A DNA stretch of 5,291 bases from Spirochaetaceae bacterium (GTDB lineage Bacteria; Spirochaetota; Spirochaetia; SZUA-6; Bin103): positions 1 to 5,291 of the forward strand of contig JAPOQV010000608.1 of NCBI GenBank assembly GCA_026710565.1. Direction: 5' to 3'. The position numbers were made by a program, and so were the translations under genes. This document shows positions 311 through 5,291 of this stretch, one piece after another. The notes beneath the pieces were generated by a model that worked only from the letters and a program-made list of their open reading frames with translations, was not told the origin of the DNA and did no database searches. Numbering within the stretch: position 1 is the first letter of the stretch; every line of letters starts with the position of its first letter.

Positions 311-1333
311 TCAGAGTCGAGGAAATGACCGCTCAAGCCAGGCGCGGAGGTGGGCGGATTCCTGGGCGGCGGACGGGTCGAGTTCGGCTTGGCGGAGCCG
401 GGTGCGGACCACGAATACGTCCATCTCGTCGGGCGGTGAGTCCCGGTGCACGATCTCGTGCACCTTGCGCGCGAAGAAGGTTCCCCAGTCGGGCCGGCGG
501 CCGTCCAGGTCGGTGAAGCCGTACTCCTTCTCCAGCTCCCAGCTCGACAAAAGGCGGCCGCTCTTGTCGGCAACGGGCGGGTGGGCGGCGAGCCCCGCCA
601 CGGCGCGGCCGACGTAGCAGGGGGTCTCCGACTCGGCGAAGTAGGGGTCGGCCGCGATGCCGTCCCGCCAGTTCGATTCGGTAACGCCGAGTCCGTCGAG
701 CACCGCCTCCGAGCGCAGAAACCCGGGCGTGATCGCCAACGCGGGCACGCGCTGGGCGGGCAGGTCCGCCGCCATGGCGTAGGCGAGCCGGATCACCGCG
801 TTCTTGGCCAGGTCGTAAAACAGGTTGCCGCGGTATCCGAGGGTGTCGCCGTCGGTCACCTCCACGATGAGGCCGGCGTTGCGTTCGACCATCAGCGGAG
901 CGCCGTGGCGGCTGGTGATGATGTGGCTGTGCACGGCGCGCTCCAGCATCGCCAGCCCCTTGGACGTGGACAGCTCCCAGAACGGCAGCCCCCACTCGCT
1001 CAGCTCGTCGCCGCCCCAGATGTCATTCACCAGCACGTCAAGCCGGCCGTGCTCGGCGCGGATCCGTCCGAACAGCCGCTCCACCTCCGGCTCCACGGTG
1101 TGGTCGGTGCGGACGGCGATCCCGCGGCCACCCTCCGCGGTGACCAGTGCCGCCGTCTCGTCGATCGTCTCGGTGCGCCCGGCGGTCGCCGGGTTCCCGG
1201 CCACGCTGCGGCCCGTGCAATAGACGGTCGCCCCCGCCGCGCCCAGCATGCGGGCGATGCCGCGGCCGGCGCCGCGCGTGGCCCCGGCGACCACGGCAAC
1301 CTGTCCGGCAAGCGGTTGCCGTGGTGCGTTCAA
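311..1333 (-). CDS. SDR-family NAD(P)-dependent oxidoreductase
   Basis: This is a 340-residue short-chain dehydrogenase/reductase with an N-terminal Rossmann fold. The nucleotide-binding glycine motif is GATRGAGRGIA (about 17-27), after strand VAVVAGA. The usual NNAG position reads VNDIWGG (102-108). The catalytic YxxxK is Y173-D-L-A-K177. Residue 160, where the catalytic Ser normally sits 13 residues before the Tyr, is Thr in EVTDGD. ITPGFLRSEA (201-210) is the typical substrate-loop start. The C-terminal tail beyond about 250 is longer than in classical 250-residue SDRs. Overall it resembles DHRS1-like and related bacterial SDRs with a VNDxWGG signature, as I recall them. The start is TTG at 1333. 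Its bases overlap the TGA of the upstream GH32 gene (TTGA), implying translational coupling. The next in-frame GTG would remove the first beta strand. The substrate is unknown, and the operon suggests a sugar-derived or hydroxylated compound. Confidence 0.9.
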   Translation of the reverse strand: MNAPRQPLAGQVAVVAGATRGAGRGIARMLGAAGATVYCTGRSVAGNPATAGRTETIDETAALVTAEGGRGIAVRTDHTVEPEVERLFGRIRAEHGRLDVLVNDIWGGDELSEWGLPFWELSTSKGLAMLERAVHSHIITSRHGAPLMVERNAGLIVEVTDGDTLGYRGNLFYDLAKNAVIRLAYAMAADLPAQRVPALAITPGFLRSEAVLDGLGVTESNWRDGIAADPYFAESETPCYVGRAVAGLAAHPPVADKSGRLLSSWELEKEYGFTDLDGRRPDWGTFFARKVHEIVHRDSPPDEMDVFVVRTRLRQAELDPSAAQESAHLRAWLERSFPRL

Positions 1334-2775
1334 CCGCCGGTCCCGTGCGCCTGCGGCCAGGCGGAGTTCAGCTCGTGGATTGCCAGCGAGACGAGGCGCA
1401 CGTTCCCGCCGTCGGCGTACAGCTCCAGCGGAATGTCGCAGGCGGCCGGCAGGAAGCAGAACGATGCCGACACCAGGCCGCCGGCGGCGAACAGCTCCAG
1501 CGAGGTGCGGTCCACCAGGAGTTGCAGGCGCAGGCAGCCGTCGCCGTCGCGGGGGGCCGGGATCGTGTGGCCGAGCCAGGTAAACCGGGCGACCGCGGCG
1601 TCGTAGCGCAGGTCGTGGCCGCGGATGATGATGCCGAACGCGGCGGCGTCACCGGGGTCGATCACCGCTTCGAGGTGGAACAGGTCCCAGGTCGTGTCGG
1701 GCGCCAGGTTGCGATACTCGGTGGCAAGGCGGCTCTGCCAGCCGGGTCCGTGCACGTGGTACAGGTCGTGCCGGTTCAGGCCGGGGCTGAGCCGGTGGTC
1801 GTCCCAGCGCAGCGTGCGCCGGTGCAGAACCTCCAGCTCGCGCACCGGCTGCCGGCACAGGCGCACCCCCTGCGGCGTGGTGCGCAGGGTCAGCTCGACC
1901 GGGAACGACATCTGGCCGTTGAACGGCATCGCCGGGAAGTGCCCTCCGCGCAGCCAGGAGATCTGGATGCGGCGGCCGTCCTCGGACGGCACGTCGCTCC
2001 AGGTCTGGGCGGCGTAGCCGCTGGGACCCAGCTCGCTGCGCAGCGCCGGCGACTCGGGGGTGAATACGGTGCCGTCGAAGCGGCCCAGGCGGTAGACGCC
2101 GGCCGCGCCCCAGAACACCCAGCGGGTGTCGCCGGGGTCGCCGTCCACCGGCAGCTCGAACAGGTCCGGGCACTCGCCGGTGTCCGCCACCTCCAGGTCG
2201 CTCAGGTGGCGCCACCGCTTCAGGTCGGGCGATCCGTACAGGGCGAAGTCGTTGCCGTCCAGGAACAGCGCCATGATCCACTGCCCCGTGGGCGCGTGCC
2301 GGATCACCTTGGGGTCGCGGTTGTTGGCGCGCACGTGGCCGAGCACGGGGTTGCCGGCATAGCGCCGGAAGGTGCGCCCGCGGTCGGTGCTGGAGGCGAT
2401 CGCCTGCACGCACGGGGTGGCGCCCGGCTGGTCGGGCCGCGGCGCTCCGAAGCCCCCGGTGGTATAGACCGCCACCAGGGCCTGCTCACCGCCGCCGTCG
2501 GCAAGGCCCGCGCTGTTGTCGGTGTCGACCACCGCCGACCCGGACCAGATGAATCCGTAATCGTCCGGGGCGATGGCGGTGTCGAGCTCGCGCCAATGCA
2601 CCAGGTCGGTGCTCACCGCGTGCCCCCAGGAGTTGGCCGCGTGGTTCATGAACCCCGGCGTGTGCTGAAAGAACAGGTGGTATTCGCCGCGATAGTGGAC
2701 CGGCCCATTGGGATCGTTCATCCACGAGTGCCGCGGGCTGAAGTGGAACTGCGGGCGATGCAGCTCGTCATACAT
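1330..2775 (-). CDS. GH32 glycosidase (beta-fructofuranosidase/levanase/inulinase type)
   Basis: This 481-residue protein hydrolyses beta-fructosidic bonds, as in sucrose, fructo-oligosaccharides, levan or inulin. All three GH32 catalytic motifs are present: WMNDPNG (18-24) with nucleophile D21, NNRDPK (151-156) with transition-state Asp D154, and TGECPDLFEL (199-208) with acid/base E201. The five-bladed propeller fills roughly the first 300 residues. The C-terminal beta-sandwich carries the family signature LLVDRTSLELF (419-429). The length is normal for the family. There is no signal peptide, so it should act in the cytoplasm on imported short substrates. The frame stays open upstream to 3366, but that part is a shadow of the PhyH gene. 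ATG at 2775 places the WMNDPNG motif correctly and lies 23 bases after the PhyH stop. No clear Shine-Dalgarno sequence is visible, which suggests coupling to the upstream gene. Exact specificity cannot be read. Confidence 0.95.
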   Translation of the reverse strand: MYDELHRPQFHFSPRHSWMNDPNGPVHYRGEYHLFFQHTPGFMNHAANSWGHAVSTDLVHWRELDTAIAPDDYGFIWSGSAVVDTDNSAGLADGGGEQALVAVYTTGGFGAPRPDQPGATPCVQAIASSTDRGRTFRRYAGNPVLGHVRANNRDPKVIRHAPTGQWIMALFLDGNDFALYGSPDLKRWRHLSDLEVADTGECPDLFELPVDGDPGDTRWVFWGAAGVYRLGRFDGTVFTPESPALRSELGPSGYAAQTWSDVPSEDGRRIQISWLRGGHFPAMPFNGQMSFPVELTLRTTPQGVRLCRQPVRELEVLHRRTLRWDDHRLSPGLNRHDLYHVHGPGWQSRLATEYRNLAPDTTWDLFHLEAVIDPGDAAAFGIIIRGHDLRYDAAVARFTWLGHTIPAPRDGDGCLRLQLLVDRTSLELFAAGGLVSASFCFLPAACDIPLELYADGGNVRLVSLAIHELNSAWPQAHGTGG

Positions 2776-2798
2776 GGGGGGACCGCGACCGAGACAGG

Positions 2799-3710
2799 CT
2801 AGGCCTGCATCCAGGGATACATGGGGCCGAGGAAGGGAGTCGGTTCGGCGGGGCGCGGGTAGGAGAGCTTCTGCGGGTGGTTCTCGATGCCGGCCTTCCA
2901 CGCGGCGCTCCACTCGTCGTAGGTGGTCAGCGAGTCCGGCGCGGTGCTGCTGCGCGCGACCAGGCTCGGCCACTCCGGGCGTGGCGAGGGCGTGCCCCGC
3001 GTCTGGTAGCGCAGGTCCATGCTCCAGCGGATGCCGCCGGTGCGGTTGGGGCCGGAGCCGTGCGGACAGAGCTTGTGGATGAAGATCACGTCGCCCTTGC
3101 GCATGGGCACGGTCACCGGGGCGCACGGCGGCTGCGAGTCGAGGCTCCAGTACACGGTGCCCCGGCGGTGCAGGCCGGGACAGAGCTGCAGGCAGCCATT
3201 GTCCGCCGTCGCATCGTTGAGCGGGAACCAGACGGTGAGCACGAACAGCTCGCGTGCTTCCGGCGTGGTGAAGATCGCGTCCTGATGCCAGGGGGCGATG
3301 TTGGAGCCCTTGTTCTCGGCCTCGTCCGACGGGAGCTTGGCGCGCACGTGGGAGATGGCGTTGCACGCGATCTCCGGGCCGATGAAGCCCTCGACCAGGT
3401 CGAGCAGGCTCGGGTTGCGCATGATCTCGAACAGGCCGCGCGTCCGCGTCCGCCCGATGTCCAGGGCCGCGTCCGACTCGAAGTAGGTCGCGGAGTCCTC
3501 ATCGCAGATGCGTGCGAGCCGCGTGTCGAACGGCTCGTCAGCGTAGAGCTGCGAGATCCGGCCCTCCGCGCGCAGCCGCCGCGCGACGCCGTCGACGATC
3601 GCCGCATAGTCGTCGATCACCGGCTGCAGGTCCGCGTCGGAGAGCGCCTCTTCGACCACCACGTACCCCTGTTCGACGAACCGATCGACGTGCTTCTGAC
3701 TCAGCCTCAT
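2799..3710 (-). CDS. phytanoyl-CoA dioxygenase (PhyH) family Fe(II)/2-oxoglutarate oxygenase
   Basis: This 303-residue protein should hydroxylate a small molecule using O2 and 2-oxoglutarate. The iron-binding triad is visible as WHQD (H142, D144) and PHGSGPN (H217). The 2-oxoglutarate-binding Arg is R228, eleven residues after the distal His, the usual PhyH spacing. The N-terminus (FVEQGYVVVEEALSDADL, about 11-28) is the typical PhyH opening helix and strand. FPLNDATADNGCLQLCPGLH (162-181) is the conserved core strand pair. The family covers phytanoyl-CoA hydroxylase, ectoine hydroxylase and many unassigned bacterial enzymes, and the substrate here is unknown. The start is ATG at 3710. Its ATGA overlaps the stop of the AbiEii remnant, and only a weak GGGCAC lies upstream, so ribosomes may arrive by coupling. 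GH32 and SDR genes follow immediately, suggesting one pathway. Confidence 0.93.
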   Translation of the reverse strand: MRLSQKHVDRFVEQGYVVVEEALSDADLQPVIDDYAAIVDGVARRLRAEGRISQLYADEPFDTRLARICDEDSATYFESDAALDIGRTRTRGLFEIMRNPSLLDLVEGFIGPEIACNAISHVRAKLPSDEAENKGSNIAPWHQDAIFTTPEARELFVLTVWFPLNDATADNGCLQLCPGLHRRGTVYWSLDSQPPCAPVTVPMRKGDVIFIHKLCPHGSGPNRTGGIRWSMDLRYQTRGTPSPRPEWPSLVARSSTAPDSLTTYDEWSAAWKAGIENHPQKLSYPRPAEPTPFLGPMYPWMQA

Positions 3711-3920
3711 GTGCCCGGCAGCGTATCAGACCGCGCCGTCTCGGGAGCAGCACTGACTCCGTTCCACGGACGCCCCGGAAGCATCGCGATGAGCTGGTCC
3801 CGAACGATGTCCAGTGCGTCATCGAAGGCAAAGTCGCGGCTGGAGATCGGGTTCATCAGCGGAAGAATGCCCTCCCGGAACTCGCGACTGTCGGTCGGTG
3901 ATGTACGCCCGTGGAATCAT
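3707..3920 (-). pseudogene. abiEii: remnant of AbiEii-family nucleotidyltransferase toxin
   Basis: An ATG at 3920-3918 overlaps the antitoxin's TGA (ATGA), the expected position of the toxin gene. Its frame begins MIPRAYITD, matching the conserved start of one AbiEii/AbiGii toxin subfamily as I recall it, then becomes nonsense and stops at 3819-3821. In another frame, from about 3889 to the TGA at 3707-3709, the protein reads SREFREGILPLM, then FDDALDIVRDQLIAMLPGRPW. That matches the C-terminal helices and LPGxPW ending of the same subfamily. The 214 bases could encode about 71 residues, against about 230-300 for a whole toxin. The core with its GS-type nucleotidyltransferase motif is missing, and the two ends are joined out of frame near 3883-3895. 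Inactivation by internal deletion is the simplest reading. The C-terminal piece is in the same frame as AbiEi, separated by its stop. The family match rests on recalled motifs. Confidence 0.72.
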
Positions 3921-4702
3921 ACGTCGGGCTCGACTTCGACATTCTCCGCGACACGCCATCGCGAGACGCGCCGAGTTCCGTTCATCTCCTTCCACGGGGC
4001 GAGAGCGACGGGAAAGGCCGTGCGCTCCGCCAACACCGGATCGAGGCAGTCTGCCAGATCCGCCTCCTGCACGAGTTCCAGCAGGTAGCCGAGGCGTTGG
4101 ACCCACGCCATCGGCGCGCGCCGGGCTTCGGCTGCCAGCAGGTCGCCATTCATCGATTCGGAGAGCTCGGCAAGCACGGTAGCGACGTTGTTGAAGTAGC
4201 CGCAGCGTTCAGGGTAGCCGACGACCTCCAGGGCTGTTGCTTCCGGGGTCGCGATGCGGATGGTCCCAGTCTGTGTGTTCCGCTCGATGACGGGGGTGTC
4301 GTGCATGTCTCGCCGGGAGACGAAGTCCACTCGAACAGCTCCGCATTGCAGGCCTCGTCGCGACTTGGGCACGACGACCTGAAACACCATCGGCGCCTGA
4401 TGGCCGGCCCCATGGTACTTCGCTGCGCTGAGCAGCCCGACGTAGTAGGGCTCTCCGAGGTGGGCCATCAGCTCGGGGATGAACTGGTCCGCGGGCAGGC
4501 AGCCCAGCCGCCGGTAGGCGGGGGGCACAACGACATGGAACCCACGGTACGGGTCGGCAACCGAGCCCTTCTGCTTCAGCCGGCGCAGTCTGGCCCGTGC
4601 GGCGGTCACGGACGCGCCCAGGGCCTCAACCACGTTCTCCGTAGTGAAGACGATTCGTCCTCCAGCTTGTAGGTCATCCAGGTAATCTGACGTCTTTCGC
4701 AC
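3917..4702 (-). CDS. abiEi: AbiEi-family antitoxin / transcriptional repressor (type IV TA)
   Basis: The product has 261 residues. The N-terminal 60 or so form a winged helix-turn-helix: FTTENVVEALGASVTAARARL (the first 20 of these at 19-38), followed by a Lys/Arg-rich recognition region and the wing GFHVVVPP (54-61). The rest is the AbiEi C-terminal domain, with PYYVGLLSAAKYHG (85-98) and QVVVPKSRRG conserved in the family, which is also annotated as a predicted regulator of viral defence systems. AbiEi proteins counteract the AbiEii nucleotidyltransferase without stable binding and repress their own promoter. The start is GTG at 4702, preceded by GAGGA (4711-4707) with four bases between. 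Its TGA overlaps the remnant toxin's ATG. The frame is intact with a normal C-terminus (VAENVEVEPDV), so the antitoxin survives without a functional toxin beside it. The protein could now act mainly as a local repressor, which is inference. Confidence 0.88.
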   Translation of the reverse strand: MRKTSDYLDDLQAGGRIVFTTENVVEALGASVTAARARLRRLKQKGSVADPYRGFHVVVPPAYRRLGCLPADQFIPELMAHLGEPYYVGLLSAAKYHGAGHQAPMVFQVVVPKSRRGLQCGAVRVDFVSRRDMHDTPVIERNTQTGTIRIATPEATALEVVGYPERCGYFNNVATVLAELSESMNGDLLAAEARRAPMAWVQRLGYLLELVQEADLADCLDPVLAERTAFPVALAPWKEMNGTRRVSRWRVAENVEVEPDV

Positions 4703-4706
4703 GGAA

Positions 4707-4711
4707 TCCTC
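4707..4711 (-). promoter_or_regulatory. ribosome binding site of abiEi
   Basis: On the - strand AAAGAGGATTCC precedes the GTG at 4702, giving GAGGA with four intervening bases. This is the clearest Shine-Dalgarno sequence on the - strand and supports the GTG as the real start. Confidence 0.75.
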
Positions 4712-4773
4712 TTTCTCGTGTGAGAGTCCCTGCTCCGTGTAACCACGGCCGCTGAGTTTTGTACATGGAAAAG

Positions 4774-4852
4774 TAACGTTATAGATCGTTTTTTGAAAGT
4801 GAGGACTTCAGCGGCTTGTGTCCATGGAAGCCCAAGATAACGTATTTCGTTA
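4774..4852 (-). promoter_or_regulatory. candidate AbiEi operator with TAACG/CGTTA half-sites
   Basis: Four half-sites form two palindromes: TAACGTTA (4774-4781), and TAACG-N5-CGTTA (4838-4842 and 4848-4852). The first overlaps the candidate -10 box of abiEi, where a bound repressor would block transcription. Paired sites upstream fit the cooperative negative autoregulation known for AbiEi. The binding protein is inferred from position only. Confidence 0.4.
4778..4783 (-). promoter_or_regulatory. candidate -10 box of abiEi
   Basis: On the - strand the sequence reads TATAAC, one base from the TATAAT consensus, about 75 bases upstream of the GTG start. No convincing -35 box lies 16-18 bases further upstream. 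The surrounding AT-rich DNA makes chance matches easier, so this is tentative. Confidence 0.35.
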
Positions 4853-4856
4853 CTTT

Positions 4857-4875
4857 ATGAATCTATAGACTTCAT
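4857..4875. repeat. 19-base imperfect palindrome
   Basis: ATGAATCTATAGACTTCAT is built on the perfect 8-base palindrome TCTATAGA (4862-4869), with outer arms ATGAA and TTCAT offset by one extra C. It lies at the right edge of the AT-rich stretch and contains one arm of the TATAGAT/ATCTATA inverted repeat. It could be a regulator site for either divergent gene. No protein can be named. Confidence 0.45.
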
Positions 4876-5036
4876 GTGAGAATCCCCTCGGAGCTCTGAT
4901 TCTGAGGCAAGGACTGGCTTCGGTCCCATCATGATCCGTGCCATCGCGGGCCGTCCGCGTCCGCATGGGTCCGTGTTCGCCACACAGAACCTCGTTCATG
5001 CATCATTGACCATGGACGGCCGGTCCACCGGTCGGC

Positions 5037-5041
5037 AGGAG
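5037..5041 (+). promoter_or_regulatory. ribosome binding site of the DrmD-like gene
   Basis: AGGAG lies ten bases before the TTG at 5052, a slightly long but workable spacing. A TAG at 5046-5048 closes the frame just upstream and no ATG or GTG exists between it and the TTG, so this site supports the TTG start. Confidence 0.6.
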
Positions 5042-5051
5042 AACGTAGACC

Positions 5052-5291
5052 TTGGATCGCGTTGCCGAACTGCTACCCGAACATGCGCCGTGCATCGGCG
5101 ATCTGGTCGAGGTGCGCTCGCGCCGCTGGCTGGTCGAGGCGGTAGAGGAGCCTCCCGAGCAGTCCGCTCGGGTGAGCCTGGCCTGCGCCGATGACGATTC
5201 CCAGGGACAGACGCTGGAGGTCTACTGGGACTTCGAGATCGACCGCCGCATCCTCAAGCAAGAGGCATGGAGCGACCTCGGCTCCAAGGGG
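5052..5291 (+). CDS. drmD: N-terminal fragment of DrmD-like SNF2 helicase (DISARM), runs off the right edge
   Basis: Eighty codons are open to the window end. The segment GDLVEVRSRRWLVEAVEE (16-33), followed by VSLACADDDSQGQTLEVYW (41-59) and an EID/ILKQEAWSDLG stretch (62-77), matches my memory of the N-terminal domain ahead of the SNF2 helicase in DrmD and close relatives. DrmD is the helicase opening class 1 DISARM operons (drmD, drmMI, drmA, drmB, drmC), which restrict phage with a methylase-linked system. No helicase motif is within the window, because Walker A would lie further right. The start is TTG at 5052, with AGGAG at 5037-5041 and an in-frame stop just upstream. It diverges from abiEi across a 349-base gap, consistent with a defence island. 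It could instead be a solitary SNF2 helicase of the same family outside a full DISARM operon. Confidence 0.68.
   Translation, partial: MDRVAELLPEHAPCIGDLVEVRSRRWLVEAVEEPPEQSARVSLACADDDSQGQTLEVYWDFEIDRRILKQEAWSDLGSKG

Follow-up and report, generated by a model that had tools for sequence, protein, structure and literature searches.

A reading frame cut by the end of a spirochaete contig very probably opens a class 1 DISARM operon beside a decayed AbiE module

Introduction

The 5,291-nucleotide contig JAPOQV010000608.1 of a Spirochaetaceae bacterium (assembly GCA_026710565.1; the whole contig, forward strand, is called the window below) breaks off inside an open reading frame (ORF) of 80 codons. 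What gene does this fragment belong to, and does a complete defence system follow it? The original prediction, made from the sequence alone, proposed the start of drmD and of a DISARM operon next to an AbiE module. DISARM is a known anti-phage system of bacteria, and DrmD is one of its motor proteins. Our analysis agrees with the core of the prediction: the ORF very probably represents the 80 opening codons of drmD, which would head a class 1 (type I) DISARM operon running past the contig end. Feature coordinates are collected in Table 1.

Results

The reading frame at the contig end

An ORF with a TTG start at position 5052 and no stop before the contig end had been described, and the ORF list returned it in this form, with the frame open to position 5291. 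The proposed resemblance of its 80 residues to the N-terminus of DrmD was borne out by two profile searches, both aligning near the profile N-terminus. The PADLOC DrmD model PDLC02621 matched with an E-value of 2.8e-15 (window residues 10-76 on profile positions 10-82 of 1040) and the NCBIfam model DISARM_DrmD (NF038317) with 3.4e-14 (residues 13-77 on positions 2-68 of 1021). NF038317 was the sole NCBIfam model matching at E <= 0.01; its score, 52 bits, lies under the cut-off of 610 because only 80 residues are present. The remaining four PADLOC matches comprised three other DrmD models and the DrmA-labelled PDLC02572 (E 9e-9). The latter does not discriminate DrmA from DrmD, since it also scores 525 bits on the full-length DrmD of locus L005. 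A Pfam scan of the ORF gave no match above cut-off. Judged by its sequence, the N-terminus is that of DrmD.

A predicted-protein database contains 16 other homologues at E <= 1e-3, and one of them (P0014) extends into an SNF2 Walker A motif, DDTGLGKT. The ORF itself is listed there as P0001 (80 aa, 2 member sequences) and thus appears to have been called already, contrary to the expectation that gene callers would easily miss it. Structure searching with the DrmD start yielded small-barrel matches, none with a Foldseek E-value < 0.001, and the region is predicted to form the small SH3/Tudor-like beta-barrel of an SNF2/RapA-type DISARM helicase.

The operon of the nearest relative

The nearest locus, L001, lies in a Spirochaetia metagenome-assembled genome (G001) and resembles the window both in the PhyH gene left of drmD (89% DNA identity; Table 1) and in the drmD start (88%). 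The window TTG aligns with the ATG of L001 drmD. Over 205 bases the two sequences differ at 24 sites, 14 of them third codon positions. The full-length L001 drmD product scores 996 bits on NF038317 (cut-off 610) and carries the SNF2-rel_dom and Helicase_C domains, so that the proposed check for an SNF2 helicase, run on this relative, was positive.

The further prediction of drmMI, drmA, drmB and drmC to the right of drmD was likewise followed in the relative, where the methylase, DrmB and DrmC were all found, and all five genes lie on one strand. DrmMI scores 1178 bits in PADLOC and is Pfam-supported, with no NCBIfam model over cut-off; DrmA, DrmB (DUF1998/MZB) and DrmC (phospholipase D, PLD) each exceed their NCBIfam cut-offs. 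On the L001 contig, drmD starts at 451,520 and drmC ends near 414,294, a span of about 37 kb. Neither DrmE nor DrmMII appeared among the matches listed (up to 25 per protein) for the 19 G001 locus proteins scanned, a subset of the ORFs in the 37 kb. The predicted order needs amending: an AAA-ATPase gene and a PIN-type gene precede drmMI in the six near relatives whose sequence could be followed that far. By analogy, the window operon would be the same as that of its nearest relative, with this pair between drmD and drmMI.

The G001 operon also holds other genes. The stretch from drmMI to drmA contains IetAS, KAP-type genes and genes resembling PDC-M38 and HEC-05, and a HEC-01-like pair separates drmA from drmB. 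A second IetA gene is present in the region, followed by an ORF matching only the N-terminal part of IetS. On G001 contig 2, a second locus with a RapA-like helicase and a methylase-like gene (L131 3529-12118, reverse complement), about 40% identical to DrmD, is perhaps BREX- or ARMADA-like.

Relatives of drmD and the junction with drmMI

In a scan of genome contigs, 94 stretches proved to encode a relative, and the best 80 were used as loci; having been chosen for likeness to the window drmD, they cannot be taken as an unbiased sample. Both drmD, matched past residue 900 though not always in one frame (e.g. L035), and drmMI could be placed in 57 of the 80. Of the other 23 loci, 16 run out at the end of a contig or flank and six have drmD broken off elsewhere (L003, L013, L016, L020, L051 and L052); in L053 drmD is spread over two frames, and drmMI was not found. 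Three further near relatives cannot be read as far as drmMI: drmD is broken off in L003, and the sequence stops too early in L007 and L008. Behind drmB, L003 carries a second, truncated drmD start (9224-10477) with 77% identity to the window, and the same genome has another drmD (L004) about 24 kb from the truncated copy.

The gap between drmD and drmMI measured at most 30 nt in 39 of the 57 loci; one locus had 191 nt, five had 223-527 nt and 12 had 804-6241 nt. The 0.8-6.2 kb carried there by 12 of 57 loci suggest that insertions recur at this junction, which would make it an insertion slot. Five of the 12 long-gap loci (L001, L002, L004, L005 and L006) hold the AAA-ATPase and PIN-type pair, the AAA-ATPase of L006 being split over two frames, and in a sixth near relative, G009, the same pair lies behind an interrupted drmD. 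The best PADLOC match of the AAA-ATPase was NsnB (157 bits), and the PIN protein had none at E <= 0.001; its Pfam match exceeds the cut-off in L001 and falls below it in L005 and L004. A PIN-type gene was seen in nine of the 12 long gaps (five over the Pfam cut-off, two below it, two by likeness to the L001 protein only). The slot holds Phd plus PIN in L024 and L022, an AAA/DUF3226 pair with a PIN gene in L028, and a PIN gene in L035. L038 carries Fic with a HicB-like gene just under its cut-off, L047 what by appearance is the same pair, and L059 a weak nucleotidyltransferase-like ORF below cut-off.

Mobile elements were searched as well. None of 61 pattern-matching stretches from viral contigs encoded a relative, so no phage-borne copy was found there. 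Plasmids gave 602 records with a relative, 22 of them with 80% coverage, the best at 56.5% identity; some are annotated drmD.

Alternative readings of the fragment

Three other explanations were weighed. The ORF could be what is left of drmD, broken or standing alone, in an island that has decayed, with no working DISARM behind it. The decay of the adjoining AbiE module (below) speaks for this, as does the interrupted drmD of G009; so do seven of the 80 loci, namely the six with copies that break off away from contig ends and L053 with its two-frame copy. Set against these points, the 80 codons of the window are open, the differences from L001 fall mostly at third positions, and in 57 of 80 loci drmMI comes after a drmD matched past residue 900; we consider a remnant unlikely. 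Less probable still, and in our judgement very unlikely, is that the ORF opens another system related to DISARM, for instance ARMADA, in which the YprA helicase is a single fused protein. That system and class I DISARM share a BrxHII/RapA-like helicase and a PglX-like methylase (PMC12458937), and 80 helicase residues cannot fully decide between them. However, NF038317, the DrmD equivalog, stands alone among NCBIfam models in matching the fragment at the limit given above, and the nearest relative has DrmC and separate drmA and drmB genes, both over NCBIfam cut-offs, a separation that argues against ARMADA.

A chance frame or an unrelated small protein with a TTG start has next to no probability. 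The weak start codon, the lack of an in-contig stop and the absence of a Pfam match over cut-off would fit it, but the DrmD profile E-values of 1e-14 to 1e-15 and the 94 genome stretches, confirmed by tblastn to encode a relative, do not. This candidate was ruled out by the DrmD profile matches. The start of drmD in a class 1 DISARM operon remains our preferred reading.

The AbiE module beside drmD

A full-length AbiEi, a type IV antitoxin and regulator, is encoded next to drmD on the opposite strand (PADLOC E 3.2e-95, profile positions 3-259 of 260; Pfam PF09407 E 1e-49, the N-terminal AbiEi_4 match being below cut-off). Only 206 nt separate it from PhyH, too short for a full abiEii gene. From sequence comparison, the toxin gene has lost its middle, leaving the C-terminal tail, its last 43 codons or so, and a probable start; compared with the 272-codon AbiEii of L115, about 220 codons are missing.

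Profile searches of the 108 window peptides identified the tail. A profile of 122 AbiEii proteins, the first used, ranked it first at an E-value of 0.27. A mixed profile, adding to the 122 the AbiEii from AbiEi-bearing genomes of the 20- and 147-genome searches described below, gave 4.7e-4. With those added proteins alone the tail again ranked first, at 4e-7, the next peptide having 0.48. The addition drew on nine of ten loci (L113 was left out), of which eight gave a candidate ORF and L116 none; the L120 ORF was kept despite its odd C-terminus. The probable start codon, at 3917-3920, is an ATG that shares a 4-nt overlap with the end of abiEi. Its own sequence match is at noise level (E 3e-4 in a 351-nt target, with a chance opposite-strand match of 1.2e-4 in the same test), and the assignment therefore rests on position and overlap. 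A 4-nt overlap of this kind is also reported for abiEii of Streptococcus agalactiae (PMC3985639).

In L001 the PhyH gene directly abuts drmD, and no AbiE lies at that junction; the matching PhyH and drmD stretches are 93 nt apart there and 1366 nt apart in the window, so AbiE was either gained in the window or lost in L001. AbiEi was found near drmD in none of the 80 loci (phmmer E <= 1e-5, ORFs of at least 70 aa, flanks of <1 kb to 10 kb), and the adjacency is therefore not conserved among them. An AbiE module marking an island boundary beside DISARM thus stands in part: AbiEi is full length and the PhyH edge on the left is shared with L001, but AbiEii is mostly lost and AbiE is not a conserved neighbour.

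Searches of whole genomes for AbiEi at E <= 1e-3 found it in one of seven, one of four (G009, through two partial matches with E-values of 3e-7 and 1e-5) and three of 20. Stricter limits, which leave weaker relatives uncounted, gave one of 17 (1e-50), one of 398 (1e-55) and six of 147 (1e-60). The single positive in the sets of seven, 17 and 398 was the same genome, G004. At 1e-40 none of 198 genomes was positive, a result uninformative without a known positive in that set.

The intergenic region and a possible regulatory role

The divergent abiEi/drmD region is poorer in GC than the sampled neighbouring coding stretches (Table 1; about 67-71% in the latter) and contains an inverted repeat, a candidate AbiEi operator. 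In S. agalactiae, AbiEi represses its own promoter through inverted repeats (PMC3985639). When the AT-rich part, a 170-nt stretch picked after the repeat had been noticed, was resampled 60 times with a Markov model, an equally good repeat arose once, and it arose in 4 of 30 resamples of the whole region; the operator case is accordingly weak. A scan of 3650-5291 found no sigma-70-like site and no terminator. We regard it as unlikely that the orphan, toxin-free AbiEi is kept as a putative transcriptional regulator of the facing DISARM operon.

The left side of the window

Minus-strand genes for an SDR dehydrogenase, a GH32 glycoside hydrolase and the PhyH dioxygenase (311-3710; Pfam) form a metabolic cluster left of the island, and the decayed AbiE module sits between PhyH and DISARM. 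A G-rich low-complexity run at the contig start (1-20) is perhaps a sequencing or assembly artefact.

Table 1 Features of the window and of related loci
Feature	Position	Strand	Basis
5' end of drmD	5052..5291	+	80 codons, TTG start, cut by contig end; DrmD profile matches
Shine-Dalgarno-like AGGAG	5037..5041	+	10 nt before the drmD TTG; sequence reading
abiEi, type IV antitoxin/regulator, 261 aa, full length	3917..4702	-	PADLOC, Pfam
abiEii toxin remnant	3758..3920	-	tail 3886-3758; probable start 3917-3920
Divergent abiEi/drmD intergenic region, 349 nt	4703..5051	.	53% GC
Inverted repeat, left arm, AAAGTAACGTTATA / TATTTCGTTACTTT, candidate AbiEi operator	4770..4783	+	12 of 14 positions pair
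Inverted repeat, right arm, AAAGTAACGTTATA / TATTTCGTTACTTT	4843..4856	+	same repeat
PhyH-family dioxygenase	2799..3710	-	Pfam PF05721, E 3e-26; 89% nucleotide identity to L001
AAA-ATPase and PIN-type pair between drmD and drmMI	L001 13278-15082; also L002, L004, L005, L006, L130		
G001 DISARM with embedded defence-like cassettes	L094, L095 (G001 contig 1, 409-443 kb)		

Discussion

How the system might work can be sketched from its parts. DrmMI would methylate adenines of the host DNA as a mark of self. The DrmA/DrmB helicase complex would engage DNA with 5' single-stranded ends and be less active on methylated DNA; the lower activity in the literature concerns 5-methylcytosine, and its extension to adenine-methylated DNA is our inference. 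DrmC, the PLD protein, may serve as a nuclease in an accessory role. DrmD, which resembles RapA among SNF2 motors and is predicted to begin with an SH3/Tudor-like barrel, would travel along the DNA and help to recognise or restrict incoming phage DNA.

The window contributes a further DISARM locus, probably from a spirochaete, and together with L001 it shows that an AbiE module has come or gone at the edge of DISARM. With the drmD/drmMI slot one can test whether toxin-family genes within DISARM protect the system or are simply passengers. A literature search combining DISARM, drmD, class 1 and drmMI, not a full literature check, found no paper.

Among known systems, the closest is class 1 DISARM. 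PADLOC defines it by DrmA, DrmB, DrmC, DrmD and DrmMI, with drmE prohibited (PMC9252829). The window has the drmD start and its nearest relative the five-gene set on one strand; the AAA-ATPase/PIN pair in six near relatives and the further G001 cassettes on either side of drmA, toward drmMI and toward drmB, set these loci apart. ARMADA (preprint PMC12458937) has the RapA-like (BrxHII) helicase and PglX-like methylase in common with class I DISARM, but differs in the fusion of its YprA helicase to OB-CON-DUF1998, whereas drmA and drmB of the relative are separate and DrmC is present. The window module is like AbiE in its full-length AbiEi, the 4-nt overlap with the probable abiEii start and the upstream inverted repeat, and differs in a toxin gene without its middle.

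Defence genes embedded in other defence systems have already been published (Payne et al. 2024 preprint, as cited in PMC12988326). G001 resembles these HEC and PDC cases (Hma- and defence-embedded candidates) in carrying HEC-01-like, HEC-05-like, PDC-M38-like and IetAS genes inside a defence operon; it differs in that the host operon is DISARM, and none of the PADLOC systems is by itself a clean match for the AAA-ATPase/PIN pair. The window locus itself is an ordinary member of the known system DISARM.
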